From: a virus
Strand: one strand, 5' to 3'
Length of the DNA: 64,000 nt
IMG/VR virus record: IMGVR_UViG_3300027782_006468
Location: 1-64,000 of that record
Below, one piece after another: positions 18,589 to 47,913 of the stretch (positions are counted from its first letter, which is position 1; each line of letters opens with the position of its first letter). A program made the position numbers and the translations under genes. Under the pieces are notes generated by a model. It did not search any database, was not told where the DNA came from, and saw only the letters and a program-made list of their open reading frames with translations.

Positions 18589-18598
18589 GGAGTTAAAT

Positions 18599-23974: not shown

Positions 23975-24048
23975 AAGTAACTCCAAATAAAATGAATTAA
24001 TATTGTATCACGAAATCTAAATAAATCTAGTCAACAAAAGGAGCATAT

Positions 24049-24420
24049 ATGAATTCATCAAAAGAACAGATATTAAAACTTTCTGGTTTGATAAACGAAC
24101 AACAAGCAGAATTGTCAATTGAAGAATTTGCAGAAAAAAGACATGCTGGTGCAGAAAAAATTGCAAATGCCGCAAAAGAAAAAGGTGGCGTTGCATTACT
24201 TACCTATGATCATTTTCATGTCAAATTACCTTATTACAAAAAAACATCAGAAGGAAAATTCAATCGTAAAAAACTTCAAGAAGAATATAAAGAGTTATGC
24301 TCTGAGCTTCATTCCTATATGGATGATATCGCAAGTATAGACCAATCTAAATTTCAAAAATTAGTTGGCAAAATAGAAGTTGTAGGAGAATTGCTTATAA
24401 AAAACAAAAAGAGCCTCTAG
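24049..24420 (+). CDS. Hypothetical protein, 123 aa
   Basis: Not recognised. Begins MNSSKEQILKLSGLINEQQAE, a predominantly helical protein with a histidine-containing middle (LTYDHFHVKLPYYKKTS). AAAGGAG lies 7 bases before the ATG. Its last codons and TAG stop lie in the arm of a terminator hairpin. Confidence 0.65.
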   Translation: MNSSKEQILKLSGLINEQQAELSIEEFAEKRHAGAEKIANAAKEKGGVALLTYDHFHVKLPYYKKTSEGKFNRKKLQEEYKELCSELHSYMDDIASIDQSKFQKLVGKIEVVGELLIKNKKSL

Positions 24421-24444
24421 AAAACTAGAGACTCTTTTTTTTTT
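24404..24444 (+). terminator. Rho-independent terminator
   Basis: A hairpin with AGAG and CTCTAG on the left and CTAGAG and CTCT on the right, an AAAA loop, one mismatch and a run of ten T. The stop codon of the 24049 gene lies inside the stem. The A-rich left flank makes it work in both directions in principle. Confidence 0.8.
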
Positions 24445-24662
24445 GACTTCGATTTAAAGTTGCTCAAGATCCGATCCCGATCTCGATTAATTTTGGCGAG
24501 TTACTAAGGAATGTGTGGAAAACTAAAACCCACACTTGAAAGTCAACACAACTTTATTCTTTCAGTCTATCTCTGTGCCAGAGTCTCAAATTTGCCAAAT
24601 TTAAGAATAAGAGTTTTGCACTTTAGTTTATTTAAAGAACACGAAGTCGTGGCTAAGATTGA
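24445..24662. other. Gene-free stretch of about 220 bases
   Basis: No convincing coding frame or tRNA on either strand. The only long frame on the plus strand (24511-24780) overlaps the neighbouring gene antisense and has no ribosome site. The stretch has repeated GATC/CGAT words near 24468-24487 and short hairpins (for example CACGA...TCGTG near 24641). A small RNA or replication/packaging signal cannot be excluded. Confidence 0.35.
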
Positions 24663-25169
24663 TTACTTATTTTCTGGTAATGGTTTAAATTCAATAATAG
24701 GCTTTGAATCTTTTATAGGATCAACTTGTGGCTTCGAAGAGTCTGTAGCCTTGCTTGGCATCGTCTTTTTTGGATTTTGACTAGCTCCGCTAACAGCAGG
24801 ACAATTCATATCATCACAAGCTTTGTGATAACCTTCTTCATAGGAAATGGTTCGAACATAGTCAACTTGATCCATTCCACGATAATATCCACTATGCCAA
24901 ATTGAAGAAATTTCATTTTCTTCTGGTTTTACATTATTGACAATAGATAATATTCCTTCAATCTTTCCTTGTCCTTTTGCATTTTCCATCATGCCATCAC
25001 GATGACTATTTATTTGACTGTATAATAACTCTGTGTAACCGCTTTGTTGCAAACGATCTTTTTGATCCATCAAGTTAGTAATATCCTTATATGTGTCAAT
25101 TCGATAAATTTGATACGCATTGACAATCAAAGAAAATCCCAAAACAGTACACAAAACATAATTGCTCAT
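24663..25169 (-). CDS. Membrane-anchored protein, 168 aa
   Basis: An N-terminal transmembrane helix (YVLCTVLGFSLIVNAYQIY) with the rest probably periplasmic. The soluble part contains a helical region and a Pro/Lys/Ser-rich tail (ASQNPKKTMPSKATDSSKPQ). GGAG precedes the ATG. Could be a lysis or injection-related protein; no motif supports a choice. Confidence 0.6.
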   Translation of the reverse strand: MSNYVLCTVLGFSLIVNAYQIYRIDTYKDITNLMDQKDRLQQSGYTELLYSQINSHRDGMMENAKGQGKIEGILSIVNNVKPEENEISSIWHSGYYRGMDQVDYVRTISYEEGYHKACDDMNCPAVSGASQNPKKTMPSKATDSSKPQVDPIKDSKPIIEFKPLPENK

Positions 25170-25273
25170 CCCACTCTCCTCAAATTAAATAGTCCTTAAA
25201 TTCAGTAACGAAAAGTAAAATATCACATTTTTTTTTTAAAATCAAGTCATTGAGACAATTATTTTCATATTTC

Positions 25274-25291
25274 TTCCTTATATATAAGGAA
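25274..25291. promoter_or_regulatory. 18-bp perfect palindrome upstream of acidic-repeat gene
   Basis: TTCCTTATATATAAGGAA, perfectly self-complementary, lies 25 bases before the ATG at 25317 and just ahead of the AGAGGAG ribosome site. It contains a TATA-rich centre that could be a -10 element, so an operator over a promoter is plausible. Not seen elsewhere in the window. Confidence 0.4.
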
Positions 25292-25316
25292 AGACATTCC
25301 GTAAGAGGAGATTACC

Positions 25317-26285
25317 ATGGCGTTTAAGAAATTTAGAGAATATTTAAAAGACGAAAAAAATATCGTTGAAAAACCAGAAGTGCAAAAAGTTCCCGACTAT
25401 AAAGGACCTTCTAGCTCTGCTCCACCACAAGCAAAAATGGATAAAAATGCTGGTGGTCATGGTTACAAGGGTTCTGCAAAGCCTTACAGTGCAGGGAAAA
25501 ATGCTGCCAATCCAAACAAATCAGAAAAAGGATTTGCACACGAAGGCGACAAAGATCTGAAATATGAACCTAAAGTCGATGTCGATACTAAAGATCCAGC
25601 AAAAGGCGAAGAACTTAAATCTTGGCATAAATCCAAAAGTGTATCTGAATGGCTCCAAAAAACACGCAAATTAAGCAATGCTGGCTTTATAAAAGGAATG
25701 CAAAATGAAGGTATTGCCTATGGAGTTATAAAAGAAACTATAACCGAATGTGCAAAATCAAATAGAAATGTCGCTCAACTTGTCATGGAAATGAAACGAA
25801 ATAAATTGCTTAAATCTTTGATTTCTGAGATTTGCAGTCACGAATCTGCAATTCCTGCGATTCTTTCAGAAATCAAAAAAAATAGTTTGTTCTTAAAGTA
25901 CTTAAATGAATTTCATGATATGGACCATGATGAAAATAATAGTGATGATGAAGAACCTATGGAAATGGATGATGAAGAACCTATGGAAATGGATGATGAT
26001 GAATCCATGGGTGATGACGATGAATCCATGGGTGATGACGATGAATCCATGGGTGATGATGATGAATCCATGGGCGATGACGATGAATCCATGGATGATG
26101 ACGATGAATCCATGGGTGATGATGATGAATCCATGGGTGATGATGATGAATCCATGGGTGATGACGATGAATCCATGGGCGATGATGATGACGAATCTGC
26201 TCTTTCCAACCCAATTGGAAAACACCATGCAAGAAAAGCATTGAAAAAAATGGGACCACCACCCGGTCCTTCTAGTGAATTCTAA
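25317..26285 (+). CDS. Acidic-repeat protein with T4-CTS-like leader
   Basis: A 322-residue protein. The leader MAFKKFREYLKDE resembles the capsid-targeting leaders of T4 internal proteins. A Pro/Lys/Gly-rich disordered part follows, then a helical domain (about 105-200) and a long acidic tract with two MEMDDEEP units and nine DDDESM[GD] heptads (about 226-288). The end is basic and Pro-rich. Strongly acidic, leader-bearing proteins form the scaffold core in T4 (gp67, gp68); a scaffold or internal head protein is proposed. AGAGGAG precedes the ATG, with an 18-bp palindrome upstream. Confidence 0.6.
   Translation: MAFKKFREYLKDEKNIVEKPEVQKVPDYKGPSSSAPPQAKMDKNAGGHGYKGSAKPYSAGKNAANPNKSEKGFAHEGDKDLKYEPKVDVDTKDPAKGEELKSWHKSKSVSEWLQKTRKLSNAGFIKGMQNEGIAYGVIKETITECAKSNRNVAQLVMEMKRNKLLKSLISEICSHESAIPAILSEIKKNSLFLKYLNEFHDMDHDENNSDDEEPMEMDDEEPMEMDDDESMGDDDESMGDDDESMGDDDESMGDDDESMDDDDESMGDDDESMGDDDESMGDDDESMGDDDDESALSNPIGKHHARKALKKMGPPPGPSSEF
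25992..26180 (+). repeat. 21-bp tandem repeat, nine copies (DDDESMG)
   Basis: Nine in-frame copies of a 21-base unit coding for DDDESMG (one copy ends in Asp). Units differ only at synonymous third positions (GAT/GAC, GGT/GGC) and the one Gly/Asp change. The near identity means recent expansion or homogenisation, and copy number probably varies between relatives. Confidence 0.9.
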
Positions 26286-26290
26286 AAAAA

Positions 26291-26319
26291 GCAAGCTCCG
26301 AAAGGGGCTTACTTTTTTA
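26291..26319 (+). terminator. Rho-independent terminator
   Basis: A seven-pair stem AAGCTCC/GGGGCTT with a GAAA tetraloop, followed by ACTTTTTT. It ends the acidic-repeat gene and separates it from the glycosyltransferase operon. Confidence 0.75.
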
Positions 26320-26349
26320 TAGCAGGAGGCTTTATCATAGCAGGAGGCT
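26319..26349 (+). repeat. Direct duplication of a ribosome-site segment
   Basis: ATAGCAGGAGGCT occurs at 26319-26331 and again at 26337-26349 (period 18). Both contain the strong AGGAGG. The second lies directly ahead of the ATG at 26351. The first may be a standby ribosome site or a leftover of a local duplication. Confidence 0.7.
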
Positions 26350-26350
26350 A

Positions 26351-27043
26351 ATGATTTTACATGGAAGTAAAGAAAAAATCTTAATTTGTATGCCCACCTA
26401 TCACTCTAAAATGGAGTGGCTTGTTCGATCTGTAGATTCATTGCACTTTCAAACATATAAGAATTTTGATTGCTATGTTGTAAAAGATGGATGCTCAGAA
26501 TCATGCACATTTACCAATTTTGAAAAAACATGTATTGAATGTGCAGATTGCAAAAAAACAAGAATATTTTTTGAAAAAGTTTGCAAGGCAGATTCTAGAT
26601 TTAAATTTTTTACATTGCCAATACATCATAGCGGTGCAGGTTGGGGTCCAAGAAATTTTGCCATCATGAATACACATCACAATTACATTGGATATCTTGA
26701 TGATGATAATTGGTATGAAAAAGATCATATAGAATTACTTTATAAAACAATAACTGAAACCAAAAGCGACATGTGCTACACAGGAACCAGACTTTACGAT
26801 CACAACAAAAAAGTTGTCGGAGAAAGAATTCATAATGATATTCCAAAAGCTGGTTATATAGATACTTCTGAGATTATGCACACTAGATACCTTATAGAAA
26901 AACACGGAGGTTGGCGCTATGTAAAAAAGTGCAATGATTGGGATATAGTTTCAAGATGGGTTCCCGATGTGAAATGGAGTCACACCAACAAGGTAACACT
27001 TAATTTCTTTCTGAGGGATGGATGCGGAATACACAGGAAATAA
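26351..27043 (+). CDS. Family 2 glycosyltransferase
   Basis: A 230-residue GT-A enzyme. The nucleotide-binding strand is ILICMPTYHSKMEWLVRSV (residues 10-28). The metal-binding motif is GYLDDDNWYEKDHI (about 115-128). A four-cysteine insertion (CTFTNFEKTC, CADCKK) between them may bind zinc. It transfers a sugar to an unknown acceptor. AGGAGG lies just before the ATG. Its end overlaps the adenylate-forming enzyme gene by 22 bases, and that gene is followed directly by the giant cysteine-rich protein, the obvious acceptor candidate (inference). Confidence 0.8.
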   Translation: MILHGSKEKILICMPTYHSKMEWLVRSVDSLHFQTYKNFDCYVVKDGCSESCTFTNFEKTCIECADCKKTRIFFEKVCKADSRFKFFTLPIHHSGAGWGPRNFAIMNTHHNYIGYLDDDNWYEKDHIELLYKTITETKSDMCYTGTRLYDHNKKVVGERIHNDIPKAGYIDTSEIMHTRYLIEKHGGWRYVKKCNDWDIVSRWVPDVKWSHTNKVTLNFFLRDGCGIHRK

Positions 27044-28302
27044 AACAGTTCATCCAGAAGTGGAAAAACTTCACCGATCCTTCCACGCAAATTCCTTACG
27101 ACTACAAACCAATATGCAAAGATTTACTTCTACACGATGAAGAACTTGTTGTCGAAACAATAGACATACTGAAAAGAAACATATCGTCTTGGGCAGAAAA
27201 AAATTCCGAAATTTATGAAAGTAAAAAAGCCTTTACTTTTTTGGAAAAAAAAGATCTCAACGATAAAAGCAAATGGTATGTAAAATCCTTGGAAAAGGAA
27301 TCCATGCCAATGAAAAGTAGCGGAAGCACCACTGGCGAGGGATTTGAATACTTGCGATGGGAACCTTTCCTTTATTTCATCGAAGGAGAAAACCACTACG
27401 ACCTTATTCTGGATGAGTACGAAATACCACAGAACCCACACATCATGTACTTTTTTAATTCCTCGTTCGGAAGTGGTCCAAGACACATAAACAACACATC
27501 GAAAAGCAAGAACTTCATGGAACACCACGGAACGAAAAGAACCGCAATGGTTCATTATGCAAACACAAAACTCCAAAAAGAAAAAGAAGAAGTATTCCAA
27601 AAATATCTACTCAAGTATTTAAATGCAAAAAAAATGGATGTAATATTCGCTCCCGGTCCACAAATAAAAAAAATATGCTCTTATATAAAAAAGGAAAACT
27701 ATAAGGGTAAACTGTGCAACTTGTTAAGTAATAGCAATGAGAAACTTCTAGATGAGGATGCTAAGTTCCTTCTGGAAAACAAATATGTATCACATATATG
27801 CGACCACATGCGGTGTTGGGATGGTGGTGCTTCATTCTTCACATGCAAAGACAAGAACTATCACTTGATGGACAACCTTTCTTGGTGTGTCGAAAACGAA
27901 GAAAGACTTATATCAACCGATTACTTCTCCTTGGCTTGTCCTTTCGTAAAATTCTGGAATGGCGATAGGTGCAAGATAGGCGAGAAATACCAGAGATGTT
28001 CTTGCGGAAGGTTGTACAGAGATTTTAAATTCTTAGAGAATCGACCCTTCGCCATAAAAGGGCATTCGATCAACGAGTATAAGAAAAAGCTCATGGAAAC
28101 TGGTCTTACAGAGATAAAACAGGTGAATTGCGGAAATGATTTCATAGAGATCGTATCTAATAAGGAAATAGATCCATCCAAGAAAGATGAAGTTGCCAAA
28201 ATATTTAAGTCTCACAAGTTGAGATTCAAGGTTATTCCAGACCAAATATTGGCATCGCAAAAAGTACAGAACAGAAATCCATCTGGAAAGGATGGAGACT
28301 AA
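27022..28302 (+). CDS. ANL-superfamily adenylate-forming enzyme (PaaK/CapK-like)
   Basis: A 426-residue protein. Residues 98-108 (SSGSTTGEGFE) form the phosphate-binding loop of ANL enzymes. FNSSFGSGPRH and the later IGEKYQRCSCGRLYRDF segment match the layout of phenylacetate-CoA ligase and CapK proteins, where a Cys/Gly-rich loop comes before the hinge. The C-terminal 100 residues form the small lid domain. Such enzymes activate a carboxylate as an adenylate and pass it to CoA or another acceptor. The substrate cannot be read from sequence. The start overlaps the glycosyltransferase; the TAA is followed at once by the ATG of the giant protein. Confidence 0.75.
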   Translation: MRNTQEIKQFIQKWKNFTDPSTQIPYDYKPICKDLLLHDEELVVETIDILKRNISSWAEKNSEIYESKKAFTFLEKKDLNDKSKWYVKSLEKESMPMKSSGSTTGEGFEYLRWEPFLYFIEGENHYDLILDEYEIPQNPHIMYFFNSSFGSGPRHINNTSKSKNFMEHHGTKRTAMVHYANTKLQKEKEEVFQKYLLKYLNAKKMDVIFAPGPQIKKICSYIKKENYKGKLCNLLSNSNEKLLDEDAKFLLENKYVSHICDHMRCWDGGASFFTCKDKNYHLMDNLSWCVENEERLISTDYFSLACPFVKFWNGDRCKIGEKYQRCSCGRLYRDFKFLENRPFAIKGHSINEYKKKLMETGLTEIKQVNCGNDFIEIVSNKEIDPSKKDEVAKIFKSHKLRFKVIPDQILASQKVQNRNPSGKDGD

Positions 28303-31300
28303 ATGATAGATCCAAAACTGGTAGAAAATTGGAATATAATTTTCGCACTTGCCGACAAAGCTTGTGGGCATTTCGCAACATATGAAGCAATAGTCCTTGT
28401 GCCACGACCTTGTACCGGAGGGTCAAGTGCTTATTGGACTCTTGGTACTTCTTGTCCAGATGGTTGCACATCTTCTCCTCCTTCTGAATTGCCAACAAAT
28501 CCTCCATGCGATCCTAATTACCCTGATAATGGAACGGAAAATGACATAATCGGGTGCTGCGGAGGGATAGTTGAAGTCGAATGCACTGGAACCTGCTGTA
28601 ACTGTGGTGGAGTTCAATGCGAACCATCAGAGACATGCTGCGACAATGTTTGCGTGGACTTGCAAACGGATCATGACCATTGTGGCGGTTGCCCTATAGT
28701 TTGCGAACCTTCAGAAAGCTGCAAGAATGGTGTTTGCAAAGGCGCTTGTGCTTCGAGCAACTGCTCATGGACTTGGAGCGAAGGCTGTCAGGCTGATTGT
28801 GCTTATGTCCTCCTTGATGGTGTGTATGTGCAGAATCAATTTTGCACAGAAGGATCAAATTGCATTTGTCCTGCCGCTCCTGCCGTAACCGAATCATCAC
28901 CACTTTATGTATACATTTCTTGTGTTGGAAATCCAAGACCATCGGGTGTTTGGTCACAGACTTCGACATGCCCACAGGGATGCACCTGTCCAGAAGAAGC
29001 ACCAACGACAAATGGAACGACAAATGGTCAAGTTATAACCCATGAATGCGTCAGTTGCTCCCCTCCATGCGGAGAAGGACAAGACTGCTGCGGTGGCGAA
29101 TGCAAAAACATATATGAAGACAGCAATAATTGTGATGGTTGCGGAAATGTTTGCCCTGAAGCAACACCAACTTGCTGCAATGGCGAGTGCTGTGTGTCAA
29201 ACAATTGTTGTTCGGTTGATGGAACAAATACTTGTATTGATGTTATGAATGATCCAAATCATTGTGGTGATTGCATAACATTTTGCAGCGGTCCAGAAAC
29301 TACAACGCCACAAAAGTGTTGCCATGGCGAATGCAAATTCACAGAAACAGATAATGAAAATTGCGGATCTTGTGACTTTCCTTGTCCTGTCGGATACACA
29401 TGCTGTTTTGGTGTATGCAAAGAACTATATGGTGATGATCGCTTGAACTGTGGCGATTGTGGTAAAACTTGCCCTGTCGGAGAGTTTTGTAAAGATGGCA
29501 ATTGCGTAGACCCTTGTACGCTGGAGGAATGCTCATACACATGGGATGCACAAACATGCACATTCATGTACAATAACCCAAATGGGTATAAAATATGTTC
29601 TGGAACTGCGGTCATGAAATGGGTTCCAACTGGACCTCCTAGCGACCCTGATTCAATAACTGGTACATGTCCGGGTCGTTGGGATACAGTAGTTCCATGC
29701 GAATATTCAGATAACTGCGGTTGTATAAATGGGTATGGGTTTGAACAAACTATTGGACCATGCTGGGAATATACACAAGAATGCTATTGTGGTCAGAGAA
29801 ATGATGTAATCACTCCATGTGGCGCAATTTTCCCTGTTCTAGATCCAGTTATAGGTTGGGCAGGAGGAACATGGGAACAGTTAACCGACTGCGATGGTTG
29901 TCCAAAACCAGTAGATCCTCCTGCAATACCAGCCTGTATGGGACAAACTTACAGTTTCAACTGTGCAGGATCTTGGATCTACAGACCATGCCCAAGCTGC
30001 GTATGCCCAATAAACGAGCCACTTCGAGAAGGAACACCAAATGAAAAAGTTTCTTCTCCCTGTAAAAACTGTGATCCAGCTTGTGGTGCCAATCAAAAGT
30101 GTTGCAATCATGTTTGTAAAAACATACTTACAGATGTTCGTAATTGCGGAGATTGCGGAAGAGATTGCGGATCTGCTGCGGGAACCGCTTGCTGTAGGGG
30201 AACATGCGTAAACACACTTACAGAAGAACTTTACTGCGGAGGTTGCAATACCGTTTGTGCATGGTCAGAAACTTGTTGCAATGGTTTTTGCAAAGATACT
30301 CACACAGACCCTGCTAACTGTGGTAGTTGCGGACATCCTTGTGCTGCTGGCGAAGTTTGCTGTAATAGTTTTTGCGTAAACACAAATACCGACAGAAATA
30401 ACTGTGGAAGTTGCCCATTTGTATGTCCCAACGCAGATAAGTGCATTGACGGAAGATGCGTTCCATGCGACCCCCCATGTCTAGAAGCTGGAACCGCTTG
30501 CTGCAACAATTCATGCATCGACATATTGTCTGACGAGAACAACTGCGGTGGTTGCAACATACCCTGTGCTGGCAAATGCTGCAATGGGTCTTGCGTATTA
30601 GATTTGAACACCATGTACAACTGTGGTGATTGCGGAATAGCGTGTCCGCAAATGATCAACCAGATCAATCTGTGGCAGTGCTGCAATGGTCAGTGCAAGA
30701 ATCTAAAAACTGATCCAGAAAACTGCGGTTTTTGCGGAAGAGTATGTCAAGAGCCTCCGGGTGACACATTTAAAGTTCCAAAATGTTTCTTGGGAAACTG
30801 TGCAGAACCAGAATGTGTATGTTTGGGAGGGGAAACCCCCGGACCTGACGATGTTGTTTTCGTATCCACATGCCTTGGGAACACGATAAGCTGTGAGGGG
30901 TCTTGTTATTTTGAGAATGTGGGCGGAAGTTGGGTTCTTCATGAAGAGCCGGGCGGAACTGGATTTTCTGGATCTTGCGGAAAAGAACCAGACTACACAT
31001 ATTGTGTTGATGACAAATATGCCTGTGTTGGAGATATATATTATTGCGTAAAACCCATAGAAGGACAAGATATGCCAACTTATTGTATACCAAAACCATC
31101 ATTTGACCCATTAGCACAAGCACTAATCGGATCGTATATCGGAGCAGAAAACTGTGCTGCTGGTTGCAGCGGGGATGGAAGCTGTCCAGACGGTTGTGCA
31201 AACGGATTGACCTGTTGTAATACGGAATGCGTGGACACGCAAACGGACAGTGCCAATTGCGGTGGTTGTGGTGGCGGTCCTTGTGCCTCTGATGAGACTT

Positions 31301-34300
31301 GCAAAGACGGAGCTTGCACGGGTTGCCCTTCTCCATGTGCCGAAGACGAATCGTGCTGCGAAGGAGGAACGACATGCTGCAAGGTCTGCTGTAATGATGG
31401 GTGTTGTGCGGATACCGATCATTGCGGAGAAGGTGGTGCATGCACTCCATGCGAATGTACCGCTGGACAAACCTGCTGCGGTCCTAATTGTTGCGATCCG
31501 GGAAAAGAATGCTGTGGTTCTGGAAGTAGTGCAACATGTTGCACCGGAGATCAATACTGCGATGGAACTGGACACTGCGCATCATGCAACCCAGTATGCT
31601 ACCCGAACGAAACATGCTGCGGTGCGTCTGGATGTATAGCAAACAAGTGTGGCGACTGTCCTAATTCGTGTCCAGAAGGAATAGTTTGCTGCGGTCTTCC
31701 TCACCACGAGGTGTGTTGCGGCGAAGGTCAAACTTGTGTCGATAATAAATGTTACGGATGTACGCCTCCTTGTTCGGAAAGTCAAGATTGCTGCGATGAG
31801 GTGTGTACCGAACTTGGAACCGACACAGATTGTACTGGTTGCGGTGCAGCTTGCGGAGAAGGAACAAAATGTTGCGGTGGCTCATGCATAGATGTGATGG
31901 ATGATGTGAACAATTGTGGTGGTTGCGGTGTCGTGTGCGAGGAAGATGGTGCAACTCCTCTTTGCTGCGATGGAACTCCGACAGCAAATGGAACGAATGA
32001 AAATTGCTTGAGTTGCGGAGACACAGCCGATCCAGACAATGCGACAAACCCTACATCATGCTGTCCTAAAGCAGTTGTTGTTGCTGGCGCTCCAGACACC
32101 TCGACTTTCTTTGTTACCGCTACAAACAGTGACGACAAGAATTGCGGTGGTTGCGGAAATGTTGCTGACACATCGCCACAAGTGCAAGAAAAATGCTGTG
32201 CGGGTGAAATCGTTAGCCTTTTGACTGATCCAGACAACTGTGGAGGGTGTGGCGTTAGGGTTGTTGATCCTATGAGTTGCTGTCCAAGTTGGGGTCCGCC
32301 AAATCAGTTTGGCGATCTACCAACACCAACCTCTGGTCCAGTAAACACACAAACAGACAACGACCATTGCGGCGGTTGCAACATCCCATGCAATCCAATA
32401 GAAACTGGTGATGACTGCCCACCTCCCGGCGCTCCACCAACGACAAAATGCAAGGATGGCACATGTGTGCCATGCGGAACATGCAAGCTTCCGACAGAAC
32501 AACAACAAGCACAATTGTTGGGATCTCAACCAACTGTATGGGGGTCACACACGACCATACCATGCACCTATGACGGATGTCCTATGCCGGTAACCGATCC
32601 GCCAACTCCTGCCCCTCCGGGGAAAACATGCTTCGGTGGCTGTGACTACAAAGCGGTAGGAAATGTTGGAAACCTGTCATGGGAACTGGTTGGTTGCGAA
32701 TGCTACGACTCTTGCACACTTCCAGAATGCAACGCCTCAAATCCACATGCCACTCCATGTCCAAGTGTTGGAACCTGTTCTGGAGAAGGACCTTGCGGCG
32801 GATGCCTTTATGACGACTATGACCATCCTTCTGCATACAAATGCTTCGCGCCATGGGGTCATGATACTGTTAGCTGCGGGAGTCTCTATAACTATAGTAG
32901 TACATTTGGCTATTGCTGTACGAAAGACGCAAATCATCCAAATGGCGGAGTTCTATGTCTTAGTGGCAGTTGTTCAGGTGCTGCGGGAGACTGCGAACCT
33001 TGCGGCGGATCATGTGCCGCAGGACTTACATGTTGCGGGGTTTTTCCGAATGATGTGTGTTTGAACCTGAAAACGGATGAAAGTCATTGCGGATCATGTA
33101 CGAATGTTTGTGCCGCAGGAGAGACATGCTGTAATAGCTCATGTAAAAATACCAACACAGACAATAACAATTGTGGCGGTTGCGGTATAAAATGCAGTGG
33201 AGTTTCGGAATGTTGCAATGGCAGCTGCAAAGTTCTAAACACTCCAACTAATTGTGGTGCTTGCGGAATAGTATGTACTGTCCTTGAACCACTCTGTTGC
33301 AACAATAACTGCACACCGTCTGATGAATTCAACTGCGGAGGGTGCGGAAGAACATGTGATGCTGGTGAAAAATGTTGTGATGGTGAATGCACAGAGGTGA
33401 TGGGCGATGACGAATCTAACTGCGGTGATTGTGGCTTTACTTGTGCTTCTAGTGGAACTTGCTGCTCTGGCGAATGTATCGAAAACCAATGCGGAACATG
33501 TCCTACTGCATGTACCGAAGGTCAGGGATGTTGTGGTACGCCTCCAAATCTAACTTGCACCGATCTTGGAACAGACGAAAACTGTATCAGTTGTGGCAAT
33601 GCTTGCGCTGCAGGAACGAAATGTTGCTTTGATGGAGTTGAAAACTTATGCATATCAGTAATGGGTGCTGATAAAAATAACTGTGGCGATTGTAACATAA
33701 TTTGTGAAAATAATGAACGATGTGAAGACGGTGTATGCATAAATTTAAGTGAAGGGTGTGATCCGGAATGTGTTGAGGGAGAAGAATGTTGCGAAGGAAC
33801 TGCCTGTTGTAGTCTGCCAGAATTTCAATGTTGCTCTGGCTCATGTACTGCCGTTTTCTCTTTCCAAACAGATAGTTCCAACTGCGGAAGTTGTGGAAAC
33901 GCTTGTGCTGCTGGCGAGCAATGTTGCAATGGCGATTGTATTGCCACTAGCTCTTTCCAAACAGATGAATCTAATTGCGGAACTTGTGGTAACGCTTGTT
34001 CCGGAAGCCAAACTTGTTGCTCTGGCTCATGTATCGCCACTAGCTCTCTCCAAACAGATGAAGCAAACTGCGGAACTTGCGGAAACGCTTGTGGTGCTGG
34101 TGAAACATGTTGCTCTGGTGTTTGTAAAGCACTTCAAACAGATGAAGCTAATTGCGGAACTTGCGGAAACGCTTGTGGTGCTGGTCAAGAATGTTGTAGT
34201 GGTGTTTGCAAAGCCGTACAAACTGATAGTTCCAACTGCGGAACTTGCGGAAACGCTTGTTCCGGAAGCCAAACATGTTGCTCTGGATCATGTATCGCCA

Positions 34301-36267
34301 CTAGCTCTCTCCAAACAGATGAAGCAAACTGCGGAACTTGCGGAAACACTTGTTCCGGAAGCCAAACATGTTGCTCTGGATCATGTATCGCCACTAGCTC
34401 TCTCCAAACAGATGAAGCAAACTGCGGAACTTGCGGAAACGCTTGTGCTGCTGGTGAACTATGTTGTTCTGGTGTTTGCAAAGCCGTACAAACAGATGAA
34501 GCTAATTGCGGAACTTGCGGAAACGCTTGTGCTGCTGGCGAACTATGTTGTTCTGGTGTTTGCAAAGCCGTACAAACAGATGAAGCTAATTGCGGAACTT
34601 GCGGAAACGCTTGTTCCGGAAGCCAAACTTGCTGCTCTGGATCATGTATCGCCACTATCTCTCTCCAAACAGATGAAGCAAACTGCGGAACTTGCGGAAA
34701 CACTTGTTCCGGAAGCCAAACATGTTGCTCTGGCTCATGTATCGCCACTAGCTCTCTCCAAACAGATGAAGCAAACTGCGGAACTTGTGGTAACGCCTGT
34801 AGTGCTGGCGAACTATGTTGTGGTGGTGTTTGTAAAATCGTACAAATAGATGAAGCTAACTGCGGAACTTGTGGTAACACTTGTGGTCTTGGTCAAGAAT
34901 GTTGTAGTGGTGTTTGTAAATCATTACAAACAGATGAATTTAATTGCGGAACTTGCGGAAACACTTGTGGTGCTGGCGAACTATGTTGTTCTGGTGTTTG
35001 CAAAACCGTACAAACAGATGTAATAAACTGCGGAACTTGTGGTAACACTTGTGGTCTTGGTCAAGAATGTTGTAGTGGTGTTTGCACAGTATTTCAAATA
35101 GATGAAGACAATTGCGGAAGTTGTGGAAACGCTTGTGCTGCTGGAGAAACTTGTTGTAATAGCGTTTGCACAGTATTACAAACAGATGAAGGTAATTGCG
35201 GAATTTGCGGAAACATGTGTGGTGCTGGTCAAGAATGTTGCTCTGGTGTTTGTAAATCAGTACAAACAGATGAAGCTAATTGCGGAACTTGTGGAACTGT
35301 ATGTGGTGCTGGTCAAGAATGTTGCTCTGGTGTTTGCAAATCAATACAAACAGATGAAGAAAATTGTGGAACATGTGGAACTGCATGTGCTTCTGGCTAC
35401 ACATGTTGCTCTGGTGTTTGTAGAAACACAGCAACCGATCTCAGCAATTGTGGAACATGCGGAAGCTCTTGTAGCGGAACATGTTGCAACGGCTTTTGCA
35501 AAGCGACATATGAGGATGAATTAAATTGTGGTGATTGCGGAATAGAATGTGCTGTTGGCGAAACATGTTGCTATAGCATCCTTTTGAACACTGGAGTTTG
35601 CAAAGCCGTACTAACAGATGAAGCTAATTGTGGAACTTGTGGAAACACTTGTGCTGCTGGTTACACATGTTGCTCTGGTGTCTGCAAAGCACTTCAAACA
35701 GATGAAGCTAATTGCGGAACTTGCGGAAGTGTATGTTCTGCTGGCTACACATGTTGTGATGGTGTCTGCAAAGCACTTCAAACAGATGAAGCAAACTGTG
35801 GAACTTGCGGAAACGCTTGTGCTGCTGGAGAAACTTGTTGCTCTGGTGTTTGTGCAAATACAGAAACAAGTTCATCTAATTGTGGATCTTGCGGACACGC
35901 TTGTGCTGCTGGAGAAACTTGCGAAGAAGGAATTTGCTCTCTGCCTCCACTAACAATAAAATTAGTTTTCCGTGCTTTCGCATGTGCAAGTAATTTTTCA
36001 AATCTTTCAAGTGAGCTTTCTGCTGGATCTAGAAGTGTTAGCTTCACAATCACTGTCAGTGGAACTACTTTTGCCAGTGGTTCTGTTTCAAACATTGGAC
36101 CCGGAGGAGTTGCAGCAACCTTAGCATCAATTACGATTCCAACAGGAACATCATTTAATATAAATATAAGTGGATATGCTGGATCTGCAATTATTGGTAG
36201 TACTAGAGCATCTGGTCAACTGACTTATACTGGTGCTGTTAAAACTGCAGATAATAATGCATGTTAA
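28303..36267 (+). CDS. Giant cysteine-rich repeat protein, 2654 aa
   Basis: About fifty copies of a 30-40 residue module run from residue ~70 to ~2540. Consensus: CC.G.C....TD..NCG.CG..C..G..CC, six or more cysteines per module. The first two thirds hold diverged modules broken by other Cys-rich domains (for example around 400-530 and 1390-1520); the last third has almost identical copies with EANCGTCGNAC. The final 100 residues (TIKLVFRAFACASNFSNLS onward) are a Ser/Thr-rich beta domain ending in Cys. No signal peptide or membrane helix. Similar repeats occur in proteins of myxobacteria and other environmental bacteria. A disulfide-stabilised long fibre or adhesin on the virion is the favoured guess. 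Base composition is richer in G+C than its surroundings. Confidence 0.85.
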   Translation: MIDPKLVENWNIIFALADKACGHFATYEAIVLVPRPCTGGSSAYWTLGTSCPDGCTSSPPSELPTNPPCDPNYPDNGTENDIIGCCGGIVEVECTGTCCNCGGVQCEPSETCCDNVCVDLQTDHDHCGGCPIVCEPSESCKNGVCKGACASSNCSWTWSEGCQADCAYVLLDGVYVQNQFCTEGSNCICPAAPAVTESSPLYVYISCVGNPRPSGVWSQTSTCPQGCTCPEEAPTTNGTTNGQVITHECVSCSPPCGEGQDCCGGECKNIYEDSNNCDGCGNVCPEATPTCCNGECCVSNNCCSVDGTNTCIDVMNDPNHCGDCITFCSGPETTTPQKCCHGECKFTETDNENCGSCDFPCPVGYTCCFGVCKELYGDDRLNCGDCGKTCPVGEFCKDGNCVDPCTLEECSYTWDAQTCTFMYNNPNGYKICSGTAVMKWVPTGPPSDPDSITGTCPGRWDTVVPCEYSDNCGCINGYGFEQTIGPCWEYTQECYCGQRNDVITPCGAIFPVLDPVIGWAGGTWEQLTDCDGCPKPVDPPAIPACMGQTYSFNCAGSWIYRPCPSCVCPINEPLREGTPNEKVSSPCKNCDPACGANQKCCNHVCKNILTDVRNCGDCGRDCGSAAGTACCRGTCVNTLTEELYCGGCNTVCAWSETCCNGFCKDTHTDPANCGSCGHPCAAGEVCCNSFCVNTNTDRNNCGSCPFVCPNADKCIDGRCVPCDPPCLEAGTACCNNSCIDILSDENNCGGCNIPCAGKCCNGSCVLDLNTMYNCGDCGIACPQMINQINLWQCCNGQCKNLKTDPENCGFCGRVCQEPPGDTFKVPKCFLGNCAEPECVCLGGETPGPDDVVFVSTCLGNTISCEGSCYFENVGGSWVLHEEPGGTGFSGSCGKEPDYTYCVDDKYACVGDIYYCVKPIEGQDMPTYCIPKPSFDPLAQALIGSYIGAENCAAGCSGDGSCPDGCANGLTCCNTECVDTQTDSANCGGCGGGPCASDETCKDGACTGCPSPCAEDESCCEGGTTCCKVCCNDGCCADTDHCGEGGACTPCECTAGQTCCGPNCCDPGKECCGSGSSATCCTGDQYCDGTGHCASCNPVCYPNETCCGASGCIANKCGDCPNSCPEGIVCCGLPHHEVCCGEGQTCVDNKCYGCTPPCSESQDCCDEVCTELGTDTDCTGCGAACGEGTKCCGGSCIDVMDDVNNCGGCGVVCEEDGATPLCCDGTPTANGTNENCLSCGDTADPDNATNPTSCCPKAVVVAGAPDTSTFFVTATNSDDKNCGGCGNVADTSPQVQEKCCAGEIVSLLTDPDNCGGCGVRVVDPMSCCPSWGPPNQFGDLPTPTSGPVNTQTDNDHCGGCNIPCNPIETGDDCPPPGAPPTTKCKDGTCVPCGTCKLPTEQQQAQLLGSQPTVWGSHTTIPCTYDGCPMPVTDPPTPAPPGKTCFGGCDYKAVGNVGNLSWELVGCECYDSCTLPECNASNPHATPCPSVGTCSGEGPCGGCLYDDYDHPSAYKCFAPWGHDTVSCGSLYNYSSTFGYCCTKDANHPNGGVLCLSGSCSGAAGDCEPCGGSCAAGLTCCGVFPNDVCLNLKTDESHCGSCTNVCAAGETCCNSSCKNTNTDNNNCGGCGIKCSGVSECCNGSCKVLNTPTNCGACGIVCTVLEPLCCNNNCTPSDEFNCGGCGRTCDAGEKCCDGECTEVMGDDESNCGDCGFTCASSGTCCSGECIENQCGTCPTACTEGQGCCGTPPNLTCTDLGTDENCISCGNACAAGTKCCFDGVENLCISVMGADKNNCGDCNIICENNERCEDGVCINLSEGCDPECVEGEECCEGTACCSLPEFQCCSGSCTAVFSFQTDSSNCGSCGNACAAGEQCCNGDCIATSSFQTDESNCGTCGNACSGSQTCCSGSCIATSSLQTDEANCGTCGNACGAGETCCSGVCKALQTDEANCGTCGNACGAGQECCSGVCKAVQTDSSNCGTCGNACSGSQTCCSGSCIATSSLQTDEANCGTCGNTCSGSQTCCSGSCIATSSLQTDEANCGTCGNACAAGELCCSGVCKAVQTDEANCGTCGNACAAGELCCSGVCKAVQTDEANCGTCGNACSGSQTCCSGSCIATISLQTDEANCGTCGNTCSGSQTCCSGSCIATSSLQTDEANCGTCGNACSAGELCCGGVCKIVQIDEANCGTCGNTCGLGQECCSGVCKSLQTDEFNCGTCGNTCGAGELCCSGVCKTVQTDVINCGTCGNTCGLGQECCSGVCTVFQIDEDNCGSCGNACAAGETCCNSVCTVLQTDEGNCGICGNMCGAGQECCSGVCKSVQTDEANCGTCGTVCGAGQECCSGVCKSIQTDEENCGTCGTACASGYTCCSGVCRNTATDLSNCGTCGSSCSGTCCNGFCKATYEDELNCGDCGIECAVGETCCYSILLNTGVCKAVLTDEANCGTCGNTCAAGYTCCSGVCKALQTDEANCGTCGSVCSAGYTCCDGVCKALQTDEANCGTCGNACAAGETCCSGVCANTETSSSNCGSCGHACAAGETCEEGICSLPPLTIKLVFRAFACASNFSNLSSELSAGSRSVSFTITVSGTTFASGSVSNIGPGGVAATLASITIPTGTSFNINISGYAGSAIIGSTRASGQLTYTGAVKTADNNAC
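33841..35890 (+). repeat. Near-identical tandem DNA repeats in the giant gene
   Basis: About 90-120-base units coding for the QTDEANCGTCGNAC module are almost identical at DNA level, in two interleaved types: SGSQTCCSGSCIATSS and AAGELCCSGVCKAV. Words such as GATGAAGC and TGCGGAACTTG recur dozens of times. The upstream modules of the same gene are far more diverged, so this part expanded or was homogenised recently. Confidence 0.85.
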
Positions 36268-36302
36268 AAAAACAGGCTTGAAAATCAAGCCTGTTTTTTT
36301 TC
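36266..36302. terminator. Strong bidirectional terminator
   Basis: A perfect ten-pair stem AACAGGCTTG/CAAGCCTGTT with a five-base loop, flanked by A's on the left and T's on the right. It ends the giant gene on the plus strand and, read the other way, the minus-strand operon ending at 36321. Confidence 0.9.
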
Positions 36303-36320
36303 TTTAATTTATAATTTTTT

Positions 36321-36608
36321 CTATTCTTTGTAGGCTACCCATCGGTTACGAACAAATAAAAGATTTGCAAAAAACCCGCAAAAGGCAGAAATGAGATTTC
36401 CCGCAAACGGAACATATAGTTCGCCTACTGGATTAAGCACGAATGAAATTCCCAATGAAAACCAAAAACTGCTGCATTCATGGCAGAGCATTGGAACATT
36501 AACATACGGTATCTTGGCTACCAAGTTTCTAAAAGGTCGTGCAACATCGGTATCAGACCAAGCGTAAGCGACACCAAGACATGTGACCAAATAAATCAAA
36601 AACATCAT
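36321..36608 (-). CDS. Small membrane protein with CxxC, 95 aa
   Basis: Three hydrophobic segments (MMFLIYLVTCLGVAYAW, CSSFWFSLGISFVLN, LISAFCGFFANLLFV) and a CHEC motif before the second. The layout recalls the DUF1360 family of small membrane proteins, of unknown role. The ATG at 36608 overlaps the stop of the upstream gene; the GTG at 36623 is an alternative. Confidence 0.5.
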   Translation of the reverse strand: MMFLIYLVTCLGVAYAWSDTDVARPFRNLVAKIPYVNVPMLCHECSSFWFSLGISFVLNPVGELYVPFAGNLISAFCGFFANLLFVRNRWVAYKE

Positions 36609-37024
36609 AGGAAATATACCCACATATAGTCAAATTCTCGAACAACAGAGAAACTTCTGAATGTTTTTCCAACAATAGTCTTGTTGAAATTAGCCCAAGC
36701 TTCATCACCAAGCTGAACCTTGAATACTTTGCCACCAATAGCATTGTTTACTCTTTTTAGCCTAATAGCTTCGAGTTCTTTGACTATCGCAGCCTTGTCC
36801 TTGTAATACTTTTCCAAGATATTCGGATCAGTAGTCACTTTATCTGAAAAGAACTTGCCAACCTTACCTCTGCATGAGCAGTTTGGGTTGGTCTTTAATG
36901 TTGTTAGGTCGGCAAGAATATCTGGAAATTCCGCCTTTAGTTCAGCGAATGAACTTTCGTCCTTGATGATCATATAGATGAGATCTGGCATCGTGCCAAG
37001 ATCTACAGTGATTGTAGTTTCCAT
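36605..37024 (-). CDS. Hypothetical protein, 139 aa
   Basis: Not recognised. Begins METTITVDLGTMPDLIYMII. Mixed alpha/beta, with a CSC pair near residue 50 and a conserved-looking basic helix (ELEAIRLKRVNNAIGG). It lies between the polymerase N-terminal gene and the small membrane protein, in the same operon. Its relation to replication is unknown. Confidence 0.55.
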   Translation of the reverse strand: METTITVDLGTMPDLIYMIIKDESSFAELKAEFPDILADLTTLKTNPNCSCRGKVGKFFSDKVTTDPNILEKYYKDKAAIVKELEAIRLKRVNNAIGGKVFKVQLGDEAWANFNKTIVGKTFRSFSVVREFDYMWVYFL

Positions 37025-37075
37025 AAAATTAATATAGTTTTATTGTTTTATTTTTTTGATTTTTAAAAATATTTT

Positions 37076-38438
37076 TTACAAATCAAAACAAATAGATCTA
37101 CCGCCTCTAGCCTCAGACATGAATCGACTAAACAAAAGACCTTCATATACTGGATCTACATCAGTAATTCCAAGACAATAGCAAATTAAAGAACCACAAG
37201 CACTTCCCCTTCCGGGTCCAACAGCTTGAGTTCCATCGCCACCTATATTTTCTCTGCACCACCTTCTTGCTTCATCAGTCATCATCTTTTGAATAAGAAA
37301 ATATGTACTAAAACCTTTACGAGTTATAAGGCTCAACTCTTCAATTATTCTATTTTTATACTCTGTAGTCATTGGCAAATTACGATGTTTAAATCCTCTC
37401 AAGACTTCATCCTTAAGCCTTTGGTCACAATCTGGAAATATAGGTAGTTTCAGACTTCTATCTAATTCGACACCTTTTGCTTTACGACAAATCTCTACTG
37501 TATTTTTTTTAGCTTCGCAAAAAATTTCATAAGGAATAATATCTTTATAATCACTCAGCCACTTTTCATTAAGTTCTTCCTCAGATTTCATCCATAAATT
37601 AGCATCCTGCAATTCGAAGAAATCCTGCATTGAATCTTCTTTCATTGCCCTTTGAATTTCTTTTAATGTTCTGTTGGTCTGAACCATCAACATAAGTCTT
37701 TGCAAGTGACTATCTTCTTTACGGCAATAATGACAATCTTGCGTAAGAATAATCTTCAATCCAAATTTCTGCTTTGCTTTAACAATAAAAGCGTCATAAG
37801 GTTTTTGTTTAACAAAATCTAAAAGCATAATTTCAAGCAGATAATTTTCTTTACCAAACATCTGAATGTATCGTTCTATCATTTGAAATCCAGCTTCTTC
37901 TCCGCCAGCATCAAATGCTCTGCCAACTTCGCTGTTATAGCAACAACTTGTAAAAAATAAGCCTTCTTTATGCTTCTCAAGTTGTTCGTAATTTACTCTT
38001 GGCTTTCTATAAAATCCTTTCGTCCAACCCCAAGATGTCAAACGAACAAGATTTTTATATCCAGTTTCATTGTATGCTATGGCTAATAAGTGTGGACTTG
38101 CTCTCAGTTCCAATAATTCACTTGGAGAGAGAGATTCAGAAAATTTTTGCATGTCTGACAAAGAAGAGGATTGCGGTTGCAATCTATTTACATAAAGTTC
38201 CGCAGCGAATATGGGAGAAAGTTTATTTTTCCCATATTTATCACATATCTTTTCGCATGCTTTAATTTGTCTGGGAACTGCTCCCAACATGCCATGATCA
38301 CTAATTGTAAGAAAATTTTGATTTATTTCTGTAGCACGAACCGAATATTCTTCGCATGTTCCAAGCCCATCGAGGACGGAAAAATCGGAGTAACTAATGA
38401 AGGTGGAGATGTTCAAAACCAACAATCTCCACCTTCAT
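37076..38438 (-). CDS. dnaE: DNA polymerase III alpha, N-terminal (PHP + palm start) half, frame broken near the 5' end
   Basis: From about 38395 an open frame of some 440 residues covers the PHP domain (SVLDGLGTCEEYSVRA, FLTISDHGMLGAV, ILTQDCHYC) and the start of the palm with AVGPGRGSACGSL and ITDVDP, stopping after RGGRSICFDL, just where MPDIDVD should follow. The only good ribosome site (AAAGGAG) serves an ATG at 38438 in another frame: MKVEIVGFEHLHLH, then TAG. HLHLH is the first PHP metal motif and joins correctly to SDFSVLDG if the seven bases at 38390-38396 are removed. Otherwise a +1 shift or the TTG at 38425 would be needed. The matching half is at 21257. Confidence 0.85.
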
Positions 38439-39559: not shown

Positions 39560-41137
39560 TTATTTCTTTTCTCGAATTCTTACATTAGCAGGATCATTAT
39601 CGAAACATTCGAATACGACATCAGTACCATCATGACCTTTGGTGGAAAGAAAAACATCATTTCCCCAAATGAATCTTAGACCAACCAATACATCTCGGAC
39701 ATAAGGCTCATGAAGCGGTCTGCCTTCAAATGTATGCTCAAGCATCAGATAGCCCTTACCACGATAATTAGGCTCTGTTAAACGAATATCTGGCAGTCCT
39801 CCATTTACATGGCGAGCCATCAACAATTTTTTTATCTTATTGTAATCATGACTTTCAAGAATCGTCTCTCCGCTTGGATAACGCTTATGTTCAAAGTATT
39901 CTTGTTCTCGACAGAAATCCTCAGTAAAAAATTCATGTATTAAAGTTAGATCATCGTAATACTTTCTAACTTCAAAAATCTTTTCCTTACCAAGCATTGC
40001 CTTGGTATCCCATTTTTCTTTCTTACTAGAATTTGTGCAATCATCCCATTCATTGCCGAATTGACCTTTATCCCAACGATTGCGAATATCGGACAAAAGA
40101 TTATATCCTAGCTTATAAGGATTGGTGCTATATTTTCCACCAAGAACACCCATCTTGTGTGCAGCGTATTCAATGATTCCAGAATCATGAGTCTTTTGAC
40201 CCAAGCCGACATAACCCTGTTCTGCCATGATAACATGGTCAGTCATAGAAGCCCAGCCCTCGTTTAATACTTTGGTTTGTCTCTGTGGGAAAAAATAAAT
40301 TGATTCTTCATAGATCATAGACATGATATCTTGTTGCCAAGGCTTAAGTGGAGCATTATCACGCAAAAATCCAAATATATCTTTAACTGGTTCTATAAAA
40401 AATCCAAGTTCCTCTGCAAGATCTTTATCTTTTACCTTTTCATTTTCTCTTTCTTTGAACTCTTTTGTGTTGATGTAATTATCCATATAGAAGCGATCAC
40501 TATCAACTTTAAGTCTTTTTGGAAATCTATAATTTCTTTTATCAATAATATTTCTATCTTTGATAACTTTTTGATGCCAAGCCGATGCTCCATCAACCAA
40601 AGTATCGATGCGAAGTAAATAATCAAGAAATTCAGTAACCTTTTCCTTGCCCCATCTAGCCATATATTTTTTAATACGGCTACTATGATTTGCCATGTTG
40701 TTCAACATGTTTGTATCAGTAGCAGAAAAGTGAATATTATTTTTAAAGAAATCATTATGACCAGTGGCGTGAGCGATAACAGTCAGATGATCCAATAATG
40801 TGTTGCTATCTAAGCAATAGATGTAACATGGCGATGTATTGATTACCATCTCATATATTTTATGCATTTGATTTTCATATCCACGCTGCAATTCTTCATA
40901 TTGCATGCCAAATGACCAATGTGGATATCGTACTGGAAAACCACCATACGCTGCTACTTCGGATATTTCATCGTAGGTAAGAAGCTGCACTACGGTTGGA
41001 TAAAAGTCCAAACCCCAATCTTTACAAACATTCAAAATTATTTGAGCATATTCTTTTAATTGTTTTGGAAGCTGAACTCCGGGAATTGTGTTATCGCCAA
41101 TAAGAAGTGAAGAACCATGCATGAACTTATTAGACAT
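39560..41137 (-). CDS. spoVR: SpoVR-family protein
   Basis: A 525-residue protein matching SpoVR/YcgB over its length (usually 470-510): YPHWSFGMQYEEL, NTSPCYIYCLDSNTLLDHL, IAHATGHNDFFKNN, WAEEGYVGLGQ-type segment EQGYVGLGQKTHDSG, RNRWDKGQFG and the C-terminal RGKGYLMLEHTFEGRPLH. In Bacillus SpoVR is needed for spore cortex; in enterobacteria YcgB goes with YeaG-YeaH in starvation response. The biochemical role is unknown. It is the third gene of a set with PrkA and YhbH. Confidence 0.92.
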   Translation of the reverse strand: MSNKFMHGSSLLIGDNTIPGVQLPKQLKEYAQIILNVCKDWGLDFYPTVVQLLTYDEISEVAAYGGFPVRYPHWSFGMQYEELQRGYENQMHKIYEMVINTSPCYIYCLDSNTLLDHLTVIAHATGHNDFFKNNIHFSATDTNMLNNMANHSSRIKKYMARWGKEKVTEFLDYLLRIDTLVDGASAWHQKVIKDRNIIDKRNYRFPKRLKVDSDRFYMDNYINTKEFKERENEKVKDKDLAEELGFFIEPVKDIFGFLRDNAPLKPWQQDIMSMIYEESIYFFPQRQTKVLNEGWASMTDHVIMAEQGYVGLGQKTHDSGIIEYAAHKMGVLGGKYSTNPYKLGYNLLSDIRNRWDKGQFGNEWDDCTNSSKKEKWDTKAMLGKEKIFEVRKYYDDLTLIHEFFTEDFCREQEYFEHKRYPSGETILESHDYNKIKKLLMARHVNGGLPDIRLTEPNYRGKGYLMLEHTFEGRPLHEPYVRDVLVGLRFIWGNDVFLSTKGHDGTDVVFECFDNDPANVRIREKK

Positions 41138-41155
41138 CTTATAAATCCTTAAATT

Positions 41156-42352
41156 TTACTTTGATTTTTGATTACCCATCAAACTTTTAATTGCATCTAA
41201 AATTTGATTATTTCTAATTTCATCATCACGCATATTCGGATCATTAGGATTTCCATTTCCAAAGTTAATTTCGGTGGTACGAATATTATTCTTATCAAGC
41301 TCTCCACTTTCCAACGCCTTATCGACATGATACTTAACACTATTGGTATAGTTGTAAGGCAAAATTTGTGTGATCCCGACTAAATTAATATCCTTTTCTG
41401 GAAATGATTCTTTTAATGTGTTGATAAATACTTGATTATCATCGCCCCAATTATCTCCATCCGTAAAGTAAAAAACATAAATGTTCCACTTTTGCGGAGG
41501 GTATCTATTCTCAAATTGCTTTTGAATAAATTTCAAAGCAGAAGAACAAGTTGTTCCTCCACCATATCGGTAGTTATAAAACTTTTCTTCATCTACTTCC
41601 ATGGCAAGAGAATCGTGCCACACAAAAAGTCGATCAACTCTTTTGTAAAATTGTCTAATCCAAACATCAATCCACCAAGCCATATCTGAGACGATCTCGC
41701 ATTTAGCTTGATCCATCGATCCAGATCCATCACGGGCATAAATGATCAAAGCATTGCTAGAAGGAACTTTAACTTCTTTATATTGCCTATAACGCTTGTC
41801 ACGCTTAATTGGCTTGATTGTCTTCATGGGCATGCTAAGACCCGGAACTATTTCAAAATTATTAGCAGTTCCATCTGCACATTGCCTTTTTAAAGCTTCG
41901 ATAAAAGTTCTTCTATTATGACGCAAAGATTCGGGACCAACCAAAGATATATTATTATATTTGATTTTTACTTCATCGAATGTATCATTTACTTTTGGCT
42001 TTAAATTTGGCAATTCCAGTTCATCTTGCATGAACTTCAATACAGTTTCCAAATCAAGACTTACGGTGATTCCTTCACCTTCATCCTGAGTTGCTCCATT
42101 GCCCTTTCCTTTTTTACCCTTATCAATGACATCGCCATCCTTGCCTTTACCTCTGCCGATGCCATTGCCGTTATCACCATAAAGAATTTGAGGAATATCA
42201 ATTTTTGGAATTGTGATAGAAATTTTACCTCGTTTGCCACGAGATTTTACTATCTGTCCAGATTTGATAAACTTTTTAAGTGCTTTACGAAGTTTGCCTG
42301 AGACAACATCTATAAAGTCTTTATGATCTTCTTCAATTCTGCGTGGACACAT
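41156..42352 (-). CDS. yhbH: YhbH/YeaH-family (DUF444) protein
   Basis: A 398-residue protein. The N-terminal part (RRIEEDHKDFIDVVSGKL, LPRI-like IPKIDIPQILYG), a Gly/Lys-rich linker (GNGIGRGKGKDGD) and a C-terminal von Willebrand A-like domain are visible. The latter has the metal site DGSGSMDQAKC and FYFTDGDNWGDD. The family is always linked to PrkA kinase and often SpoVR; it may be a partner or target of the kinase. It lies between the two, 6 and 18 bases away. Confidence 0.9.
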   Translation of the reverse strand: MCPRRIEEDHKDFIDVVSGKLRKALKKFIKSGQIVKSRGKRGKISITIPKIDIPQILYGDNGNGIGRGKGKDGDVIDKGKKGKGNGATQDEGEGITVSLDLETVLKFMQDELELPNLKPKVNDTFDEVKIKYNNISLVGPESLRHNRRTFIEALKRQCADGTANNFEIVPGLSMPMKTIKPIKRDKRYRQYKEVKVPSSNALIIYARDGSGSMDQAKCEIVSDMAWWIDVWIRQFYKRVDRLFVWHDSLAMEVDEEKFYNYRYGGGTTCSSALKFIQKQFENRYPPQKWNIYVFYFTDGDNWGDDNQVFINTLKESFPEKDINLVGITQILPYNYTNSVKYHVDKALESGELDKNNIRTTEINFGNGNPNDPNMRDDEIRNNQILDAIKSLMGNQKSK

Positions 42353-42358
42353 GTTCTA

Positions 42359-46278: not shown

Positions 46279-46482
46279 ATGAAAAAATGTTGTTTAACTA
46301 GAGTTTTGTTTGGTATGATTTTTGGTTTTTTTCTAAGTATTTTCGTAATGTATTCACAACTTTCTGGTGTCAAAAATCAACTTAAACATGATCATAAAAC
46401 ATGTAGCATGTGTGTATGTGAAAAAAAATGCAATTGTCCTCACGAAAATGACAAATGTAAAAACAAATGCTTGTGTGATTAA
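46279..46482 (+). CDS. Small membrane protein with Cys-rich tail, 67 aa
   Basis: The ATG at 46279 follows an AGAAAGGA site. A transmembrane helix (RVLFGMIFGFFLSIFVMYS) is followed by a tail with nine cysteines (CSMCVCEKKCNCPH, CKNKCLC), a likely metal or disulfide cluster, probably in the periplasm. Function unknown. Confidence 0.55.
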   Translation: MKKCCLTRVLFGMIFGFFLSIFVMYSQLSGVKNQLKHDHKTCSMCVCEKKCNCPHENDKCKNKCLCD

Positions 46483-47867: not shown

Positions 47868-47913
47868 ATGTGCAGCCCAATAATAGATGTTGCTATTATT
47901 TGAGTTACACAAT

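Follow-up and report, generated by a model that had tools for sequence, protein, structure and literature searches.

Phage structural proteins assemble in the reducing cytoplasm of the host and rarely rely on disulfides within a chain. What, then, could a phage do with a single protein of 455 cysteines that carries no apparent export signal? This question is raised by the window analysed here, 64,000 nucleotides of a linear, 76.9-kb viral record in IMG/VR, in which an open reading frame on the plus strand (28303-36267) runs for 2654 codons without an internal stop. An earlier note, made from the sequence alone, had read the product as a possible giant fibre and had counted hundreds of cysteines in it, and this count is borne out: 17.1% of the 2654 residues are cysteine, all in one open frame.

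The cysteine-rich modules are of a known type. The Pfam profile Stig1 (PF04885) matches the giant protein in 33 stretches with 508.5 bits (E 3.8e-156), far above its gathering cut-off of 24.1 bits, and the NCBIfam model NF041328 (MXAN_6577-like) matches it in 16 stretches with 218.5 bits, exceeding the curated cut-off of 100 bits. A strict pattern finds 33 module copies, compared to a mean of 0.09 in shuffled-residue controls, and a looser pattern finds 41, with 41-44 starts of the NCGxC type. Across five orthologues the most frequent spacing, C-x2-C-x3-C-x5-CC-x3-C, accounts for 61 of 89 modules, with six cysteines each. The earlier note was thus right about six cysteines per unit, but its figure of about fifty modules was slightly high, as 33 are clear and about 44 are reached when degenerate copies are included.

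The giant protein is not filled with these modules throughout. Residues ~1-100, several stretches before residue 1600 and the final ~105 residues are other sequence, and the first 1600 residues are less regular and hold other cysteine-rich segments. A regular Stig1 array with a period of 28 or 31 residues (TRF periods 84, 93 and 354) spans residues 1857-2549 (33871-35949, plus strand). A second module type, seen at residues 217-249 (28951-29049, plus strand; starting with WSQTSTCPQGCTCPEEAP) and again at residues 562-587 (29986-30063, plus strand), is recognised by an HMM of three modules from tail gene clusters of other phages (iE 5.8e-6 and 5e-4). The protein ends in a beta-rich domain of ~105 aa (35950-36264, plus strand), which is also present in L003, L006 and L131 and absent from L005 and L007. 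AF2 modelled the core of this domain with a pLDDT of ~80-88 and the modules in the same model with low to medium confidence; its model of the N-terminal region is poor and unusable (pLDDT 46). We found no PHROG match for the giant protein and no significant fold match for the C-terminal domain with Foldseek against PDB and viral libraries, hence nothing that ties it to known tail-fibre families or folds of phages. A sequence search found no relative of solved structure. Likewise, no trimerisation motif, collagen repeat or tail-collar domain was recognised in it.

Comparison with related viruses indicates which parts of the protein are maintained. The giant reading frame recurs at 100% identity in a 136-kb viral contig and as diverged orthologues in viral contigs of 68, 165, 189 and 41 kb; a further member of the family is partial (L131). 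Orthologue length ranges from 1438 to 2654 aa, with 2577 aa as the longest of the diverged copies, and the number of modules is strongly variable. Residues 1-146 (28303-28740, plus strand), a candidate anchor without a signal peptide, are 66-74% identical to those of four orthologues, so that a conserved N-terminal region is followed by a variable distal part, as in tail fibres. At the level of sequence, this constant N-terminus with a variable array and tip is a fibre-like pattern. Aligned cysteines are kept at 93-97%, versus 54-69% for other residues, and dN/dS among the orthologues is 0.25-0.37, which together show that the giant protein is under selection for its cysteines and is not decaying. 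The window is moreover collinear over ~25 genes with the 595-kb uncultured phage record LR756511, and its phage is therefore probably of huge-phage size, although no Stig1 match was found in LR756511 itself.

The earlier note had taken the higher G+C of the gene as support for a horizontal origin. The difference is real (0.461 in the giant reading frame, 0.337 in the other window genes), but most of it is a composition effect: recoding the giant protein with codons as they are used in 34 other genes of the window predicts a G+C of 0.438, and amino-acid content thus explains about four fifths of the excess. We therefore rejected G+C as a sign of recent transfer. GC3 is somewhat higher across the first 1600 residues (up to 0.38), with which an older mixing of sequence may be compatible, and the distribution of the modules would make their exchange with bacteria plausible.

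Related modules in environmental bacteria, which the earlier note had also announced, do exist: among the best 80 matches to a consensus query, in which other phyla may be under-sampled, cellular modules come almost entirely from Myxococcota or unclassified 'Deltaproteobacteria'. These MXAN_6577-like proteins carry tandem modules as the giant protein does and reach comparable sizes, as in the lipoprotein-like L062 with 2614 aa, 459 cysteines and 53 module starts. They differ in their N-termini. By a lenient heuristic test, which accepts any possible start codon and is positive for 31% of other cellular reading frames, signal-like starts of export or lipoprotein type were found in 50 of 59 cellular Stig1 proteins and in none of 20 phage Stig1 proteins. 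The giant protein itself has no signal-peptide-like start and hence lacks the secretion signal typical of cellular members, in agreement with the earlier note, which had regarded such a signal as speaking against a fibre. Plant STIG1 proteins, which belong to the matched Pfam family, are small and secreted, whereas the giant phage protein combines dozens of modules and no signal.

An indication of a role comes from Stig1 proteins of other phages. A search of 50,697 annotated phage records with tblastn, which masked low-complexity sequence, found no relative of the giant protein, and an HMM search of three huge-phage records found no Stig1. A codon-pattern scan of viral contigs, in contrast, revealed many further Stig1 genes, and contigs that looked cellular (with lipoprotein-type Stig1 genes) were left out of the phage evidence. 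Those of phage-like contigs are of three kinds: large cysteine-rich proteins with Stig1 modules, several of them with Thr/Pro/Ser-rich linkers; RCC1-repeat proteins with a single Stig1 module; and short proteins that start with MSDSNLELSP and have a single module. The first kind was found in several large uncultured phages. In the second kind, encoded on large phage contigs (L014:11583-13073, L008:1-819, L112, L126, L129), an RCC1-repeat beta-propeller protein ends in the single Stig1 module.

The large proteins of the first kind are encoded in virion modules. On G007 a single strand carries, in this order, genes for a terminase, portal-like and capsid-like proteins, collagen-like fibres, three tail-collar proteins, cysteine-rich proteins, tail proteins and a tape measure; terminase (phrog_2, 2e-20), collagen, tail-collar (PF07484, 5e-28) and tape measure (PF10145, 1e-24) are clear matches, and the PHROG matches behind portal and capsid are weak. 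Here a 1202-aa cysteine-rich Stig1 protein (L169) follows the tail-collar genes and precedes the tail genes, and the last cysteine-rich protein of the row has ten Stig1 stretches. The same order of fibre, collar and cysteine-rich genes recurs in L117, L146, L171, L108, L116, L120 and L164, and the more distant relatives of the giant protein in L117, L146, L171, L169 and L161 lie in tail-fibre clusters. The HMM of three tail-cluster copies of the second module (W...CPxGCxCP...C) matches four of the five proteins of the window group (1.6e-6 to 5.8e-5) and was not found in myxobacterial or other cellular Stig1 proteins (best 0.023). As the motif was first spotted by eye in both sets, we treat this shared module as supporting, not blind, evidence. 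The tape-measure-like protein of G007 (L202:2442-16526, 57120-71204 of G007; PF10145) is itself of unusual length, and its 4694 aa suggest an extremely long tail.

The location of the giant gene is different. It lies in a cassette of ~13.1 kb (23987-37075) that divides a gene for DNA polymerase III alpha in two; the C-terminal part of this gene (21257-23986) and its N-terminal part (37076-38425) are both on the minus strand and 13 kb apart. The break falls inside the NTPase domain, with positions 3-98 of PF07733 on one reading frame and 100-259 on the other; the C-terminal part has an N-terminal extension of ~85 aa, and no intein was recognised. The polymerase gene is intact in LR756511 and split in L004-L007 as in the window, and the arrangement of the cassette is repeated in those relatives with loci long enough to cover it (L005-L007, and identically L004). 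A further locus, L209:25757-29296, was recorded alongside the split gene. Within the cassette, a set of conserved plus-strand genes precedes the giant one in an operon-like arrangement: a 322-aa acidic repeat protein with the N-terminus MAFKKFREYL (25317-26285), a family 2 glycosyltransferase (26351-27043; PF00535, E 3.6e-13; 77-82% identity in relatives), apparently in the same transcription unit as the giant gene, and a 426-aa protein (27022-28302; 90-91% identity in relatives) whose SGST-type motif recalls adenylate-forming enzymes and which appears ligase-like by eye and has no family match. The stop codon of the latter abuts the start of the giant reading frame (TAAATG; an ATGA overlap in relatives). 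The giant gene runs opposite to the surrounding replication genes and ends at a strong intrinsic-terminator-like hairpin (36266-36300, plus strand; 16 pairs and a T run), which fits a separate timing of its expression. No terminase or tail-collar genes were found in the contigs of the window group, and most of the virion module thus appears to be missing from them.

Taken together, these observations lead us to propose, with about an even chance of being right, that the giant protein is an adhesin or fibre of great length, built of modules, carried on the phage particle and hardened by disulfides after lysis. It would be synthesised signal-free in the reducing cytoplasm, where its ~400 cysteines would stay reduced, and its conserved N-terminal region would attach it to the virion. 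After lysis, in oxygenated water, each Stig1 module of ~28 residues could close its own disulfides, and the outcome would be a hardened beaded rod, in some members with the small beta domain as a putative tip. With modules of 28 residues and the array extended, we infer a chain length in the region of 100 nm. Unequal recombination between repeats would alter the length of the array, and the neighbouring glycosyltransferase and ligase-like genes may serve to modify the protein. The proposal is based on the homology and gene order that place cysteine-rich Stig1 proteins in the virion modules of other large phages, on the second module, which is common to tail-cluster proteins and not to myxobacterial ones, and on the signal counts, the conservation of the cysteines and the constant N-terminus with its variable array. 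For the giant fibre of the earlier note this means that relatives in the tail-fibre and virion modules of other phages argue for it, while the position between polymerase halves, outside any virion cluster, argues against it, as do the lack of a trimerisation or collagen motif, the absence of the C-terminal domain from two orthologues and the want of any significant fold match for that domain.

The same position would suit a protein that never belongs to the particle and is released by lysis, or sits on the host surface, as an adhesive or barrier coat on debris or cells, comparable to the lipoproteins with Stig1 arrays that Myxococcota export, except that lysis would set it free. Cellular relatives do look like surface proteins, including the large L062, and the neighbouring glycosyltransferase could serve surface modification. 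We nevertheless consider such a coat unlikely, since the relatives in other phages are located in the virion module, share the second module with the giant protein, and the giant protein has no signal. The missing signal could in turn point to a protein that stays reduced in the cytoplasm: 455 cysteines with CC and CxxC motifs would be consistent with a metallothionein-like metal or thiol buffer that binds zinc, copper or iron during infection. Stig1 families are, however, mostly exported in cells, the phage relatives are located among tail-fibre genes, and the spacing and the six-cysteine unit have been preserved amid drift at the remaining residues, which goes beyond the needs of a sink and makes this reading improbable. 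Finally, the protein might be packaged inside the head and ejected with the DNA, to oxidise in or beyond the host periplasm. This idea draws on the upstream gene at 25317-26285, whose product starts with a short peptide that is common in the phage group and presumably resembles the capsid-targeting peptide of T4. No such peptide begins the giant protein, which is also larger than known internal phage proteins, and we regard an internal location as very improbable.

A fibre of the proposed kind would have a partial precedent. In Agrobacterium phage Milano, disulfides stabilise the whole virion, and stability is lost with DTT (PMC10491603). Milano thus shows that a phage particle can depend on disulfides. 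The bonds listed for Milano mostly join subunits of capsid, neck, collar and sheath (PMC10491603), unlike those of the giant protein, which would sit within small repeated modules of one chain. Our literature search for disulfide-bonded or cysteine-rich phage fibres found only precedents of the Milano type. In large tailed phages, fibres of the collagen-like and tail-collar kinds adjoin relatives of the giant protein in one gene cluster, but the giant protein has neither of their domains and its gene lies away from such a cluster. Taken singly, Stig1 arrays, fibres of phages and virions hardened by disulfides have all been described before; the databases and literature searched contained no giant phage protein that combines them and lacks a signal.

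More tentatively, and with somewhat less than an even chance, this huge-phage lineage as a whole could carry beaded disulfide fibres of variable length, which are not secreted, oxidise outside the cell, are resized by recombination and share their modules with exported Myxococcota proteins. This would be a structural solution distinct from collagen-like or coiled-coil phage fibres. If virion-borne, a phage protein of 455 cysteines would be a virion appendage of a new type and would allow a direct test of oxidative maturation after release. The giant protein also provides a signal-free comparison for the exported myxobacterial Stig1 arrays, for which our literature search found no functional study.

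Further features of these genomes concern the host and its surface. A DUF1559 pseudopilin-like gene (E 9e-40) lies between phage genes of the relative G004 (L015:11582-12670); the family is abundant in Planctomycetes, a hint at a Planctomycetota or planctomycete-type host. The window itself has a row of PrkA-like kinase, DUF444 and SpoVR genes (39560-44431, minus strand), a combination familiar from the stress and sporulation genes of bacteria, which is also present in LR756511 (53-68% identity); SpoVR occurs in Thermus phages as well. Many sugar genes are found in the window (46479-47912, 62630-63742, 1639-2364, 17638-20254 and the glycosyltransferase of the cassette), among them an HldE-like kinase/cytidylyltransferase, a UDP-galactopyranose-mutase-like gene (by eye) and several glycosyltransferases.

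The short N-terminal peptide of the 25317-26285 product, F-x-E/D/N/K-W/Y/F-L near residues 3-8, also occurs in the window at 10737-11255, in L016 (4680-13185) and at loci of G003, G004 and G008. In these three the motif is ~10x commoner at N-terminal than at internal positions, and none was found in G007; the proteins that bear it, including a tandem family in G004, are candidate internal head proteins. Another cysteine-rich protein of the window (52100-52870, plus strand; 19 cysteines in 256 aa, N-terminal CGCSCSDSKCCPPPCC) is conserved in G004 and has no family match. A thioredoxin-like protein of the window phage (L002:8153-8599, minus strand, 71153-71599 of the record; PF13098, 2e-12), which has a hydrophobic segment at its N-terminus and a WCVWC site, is kept in two relatives, G002 and G004, and might, speculatively, act on envelope disulfides at lysis.
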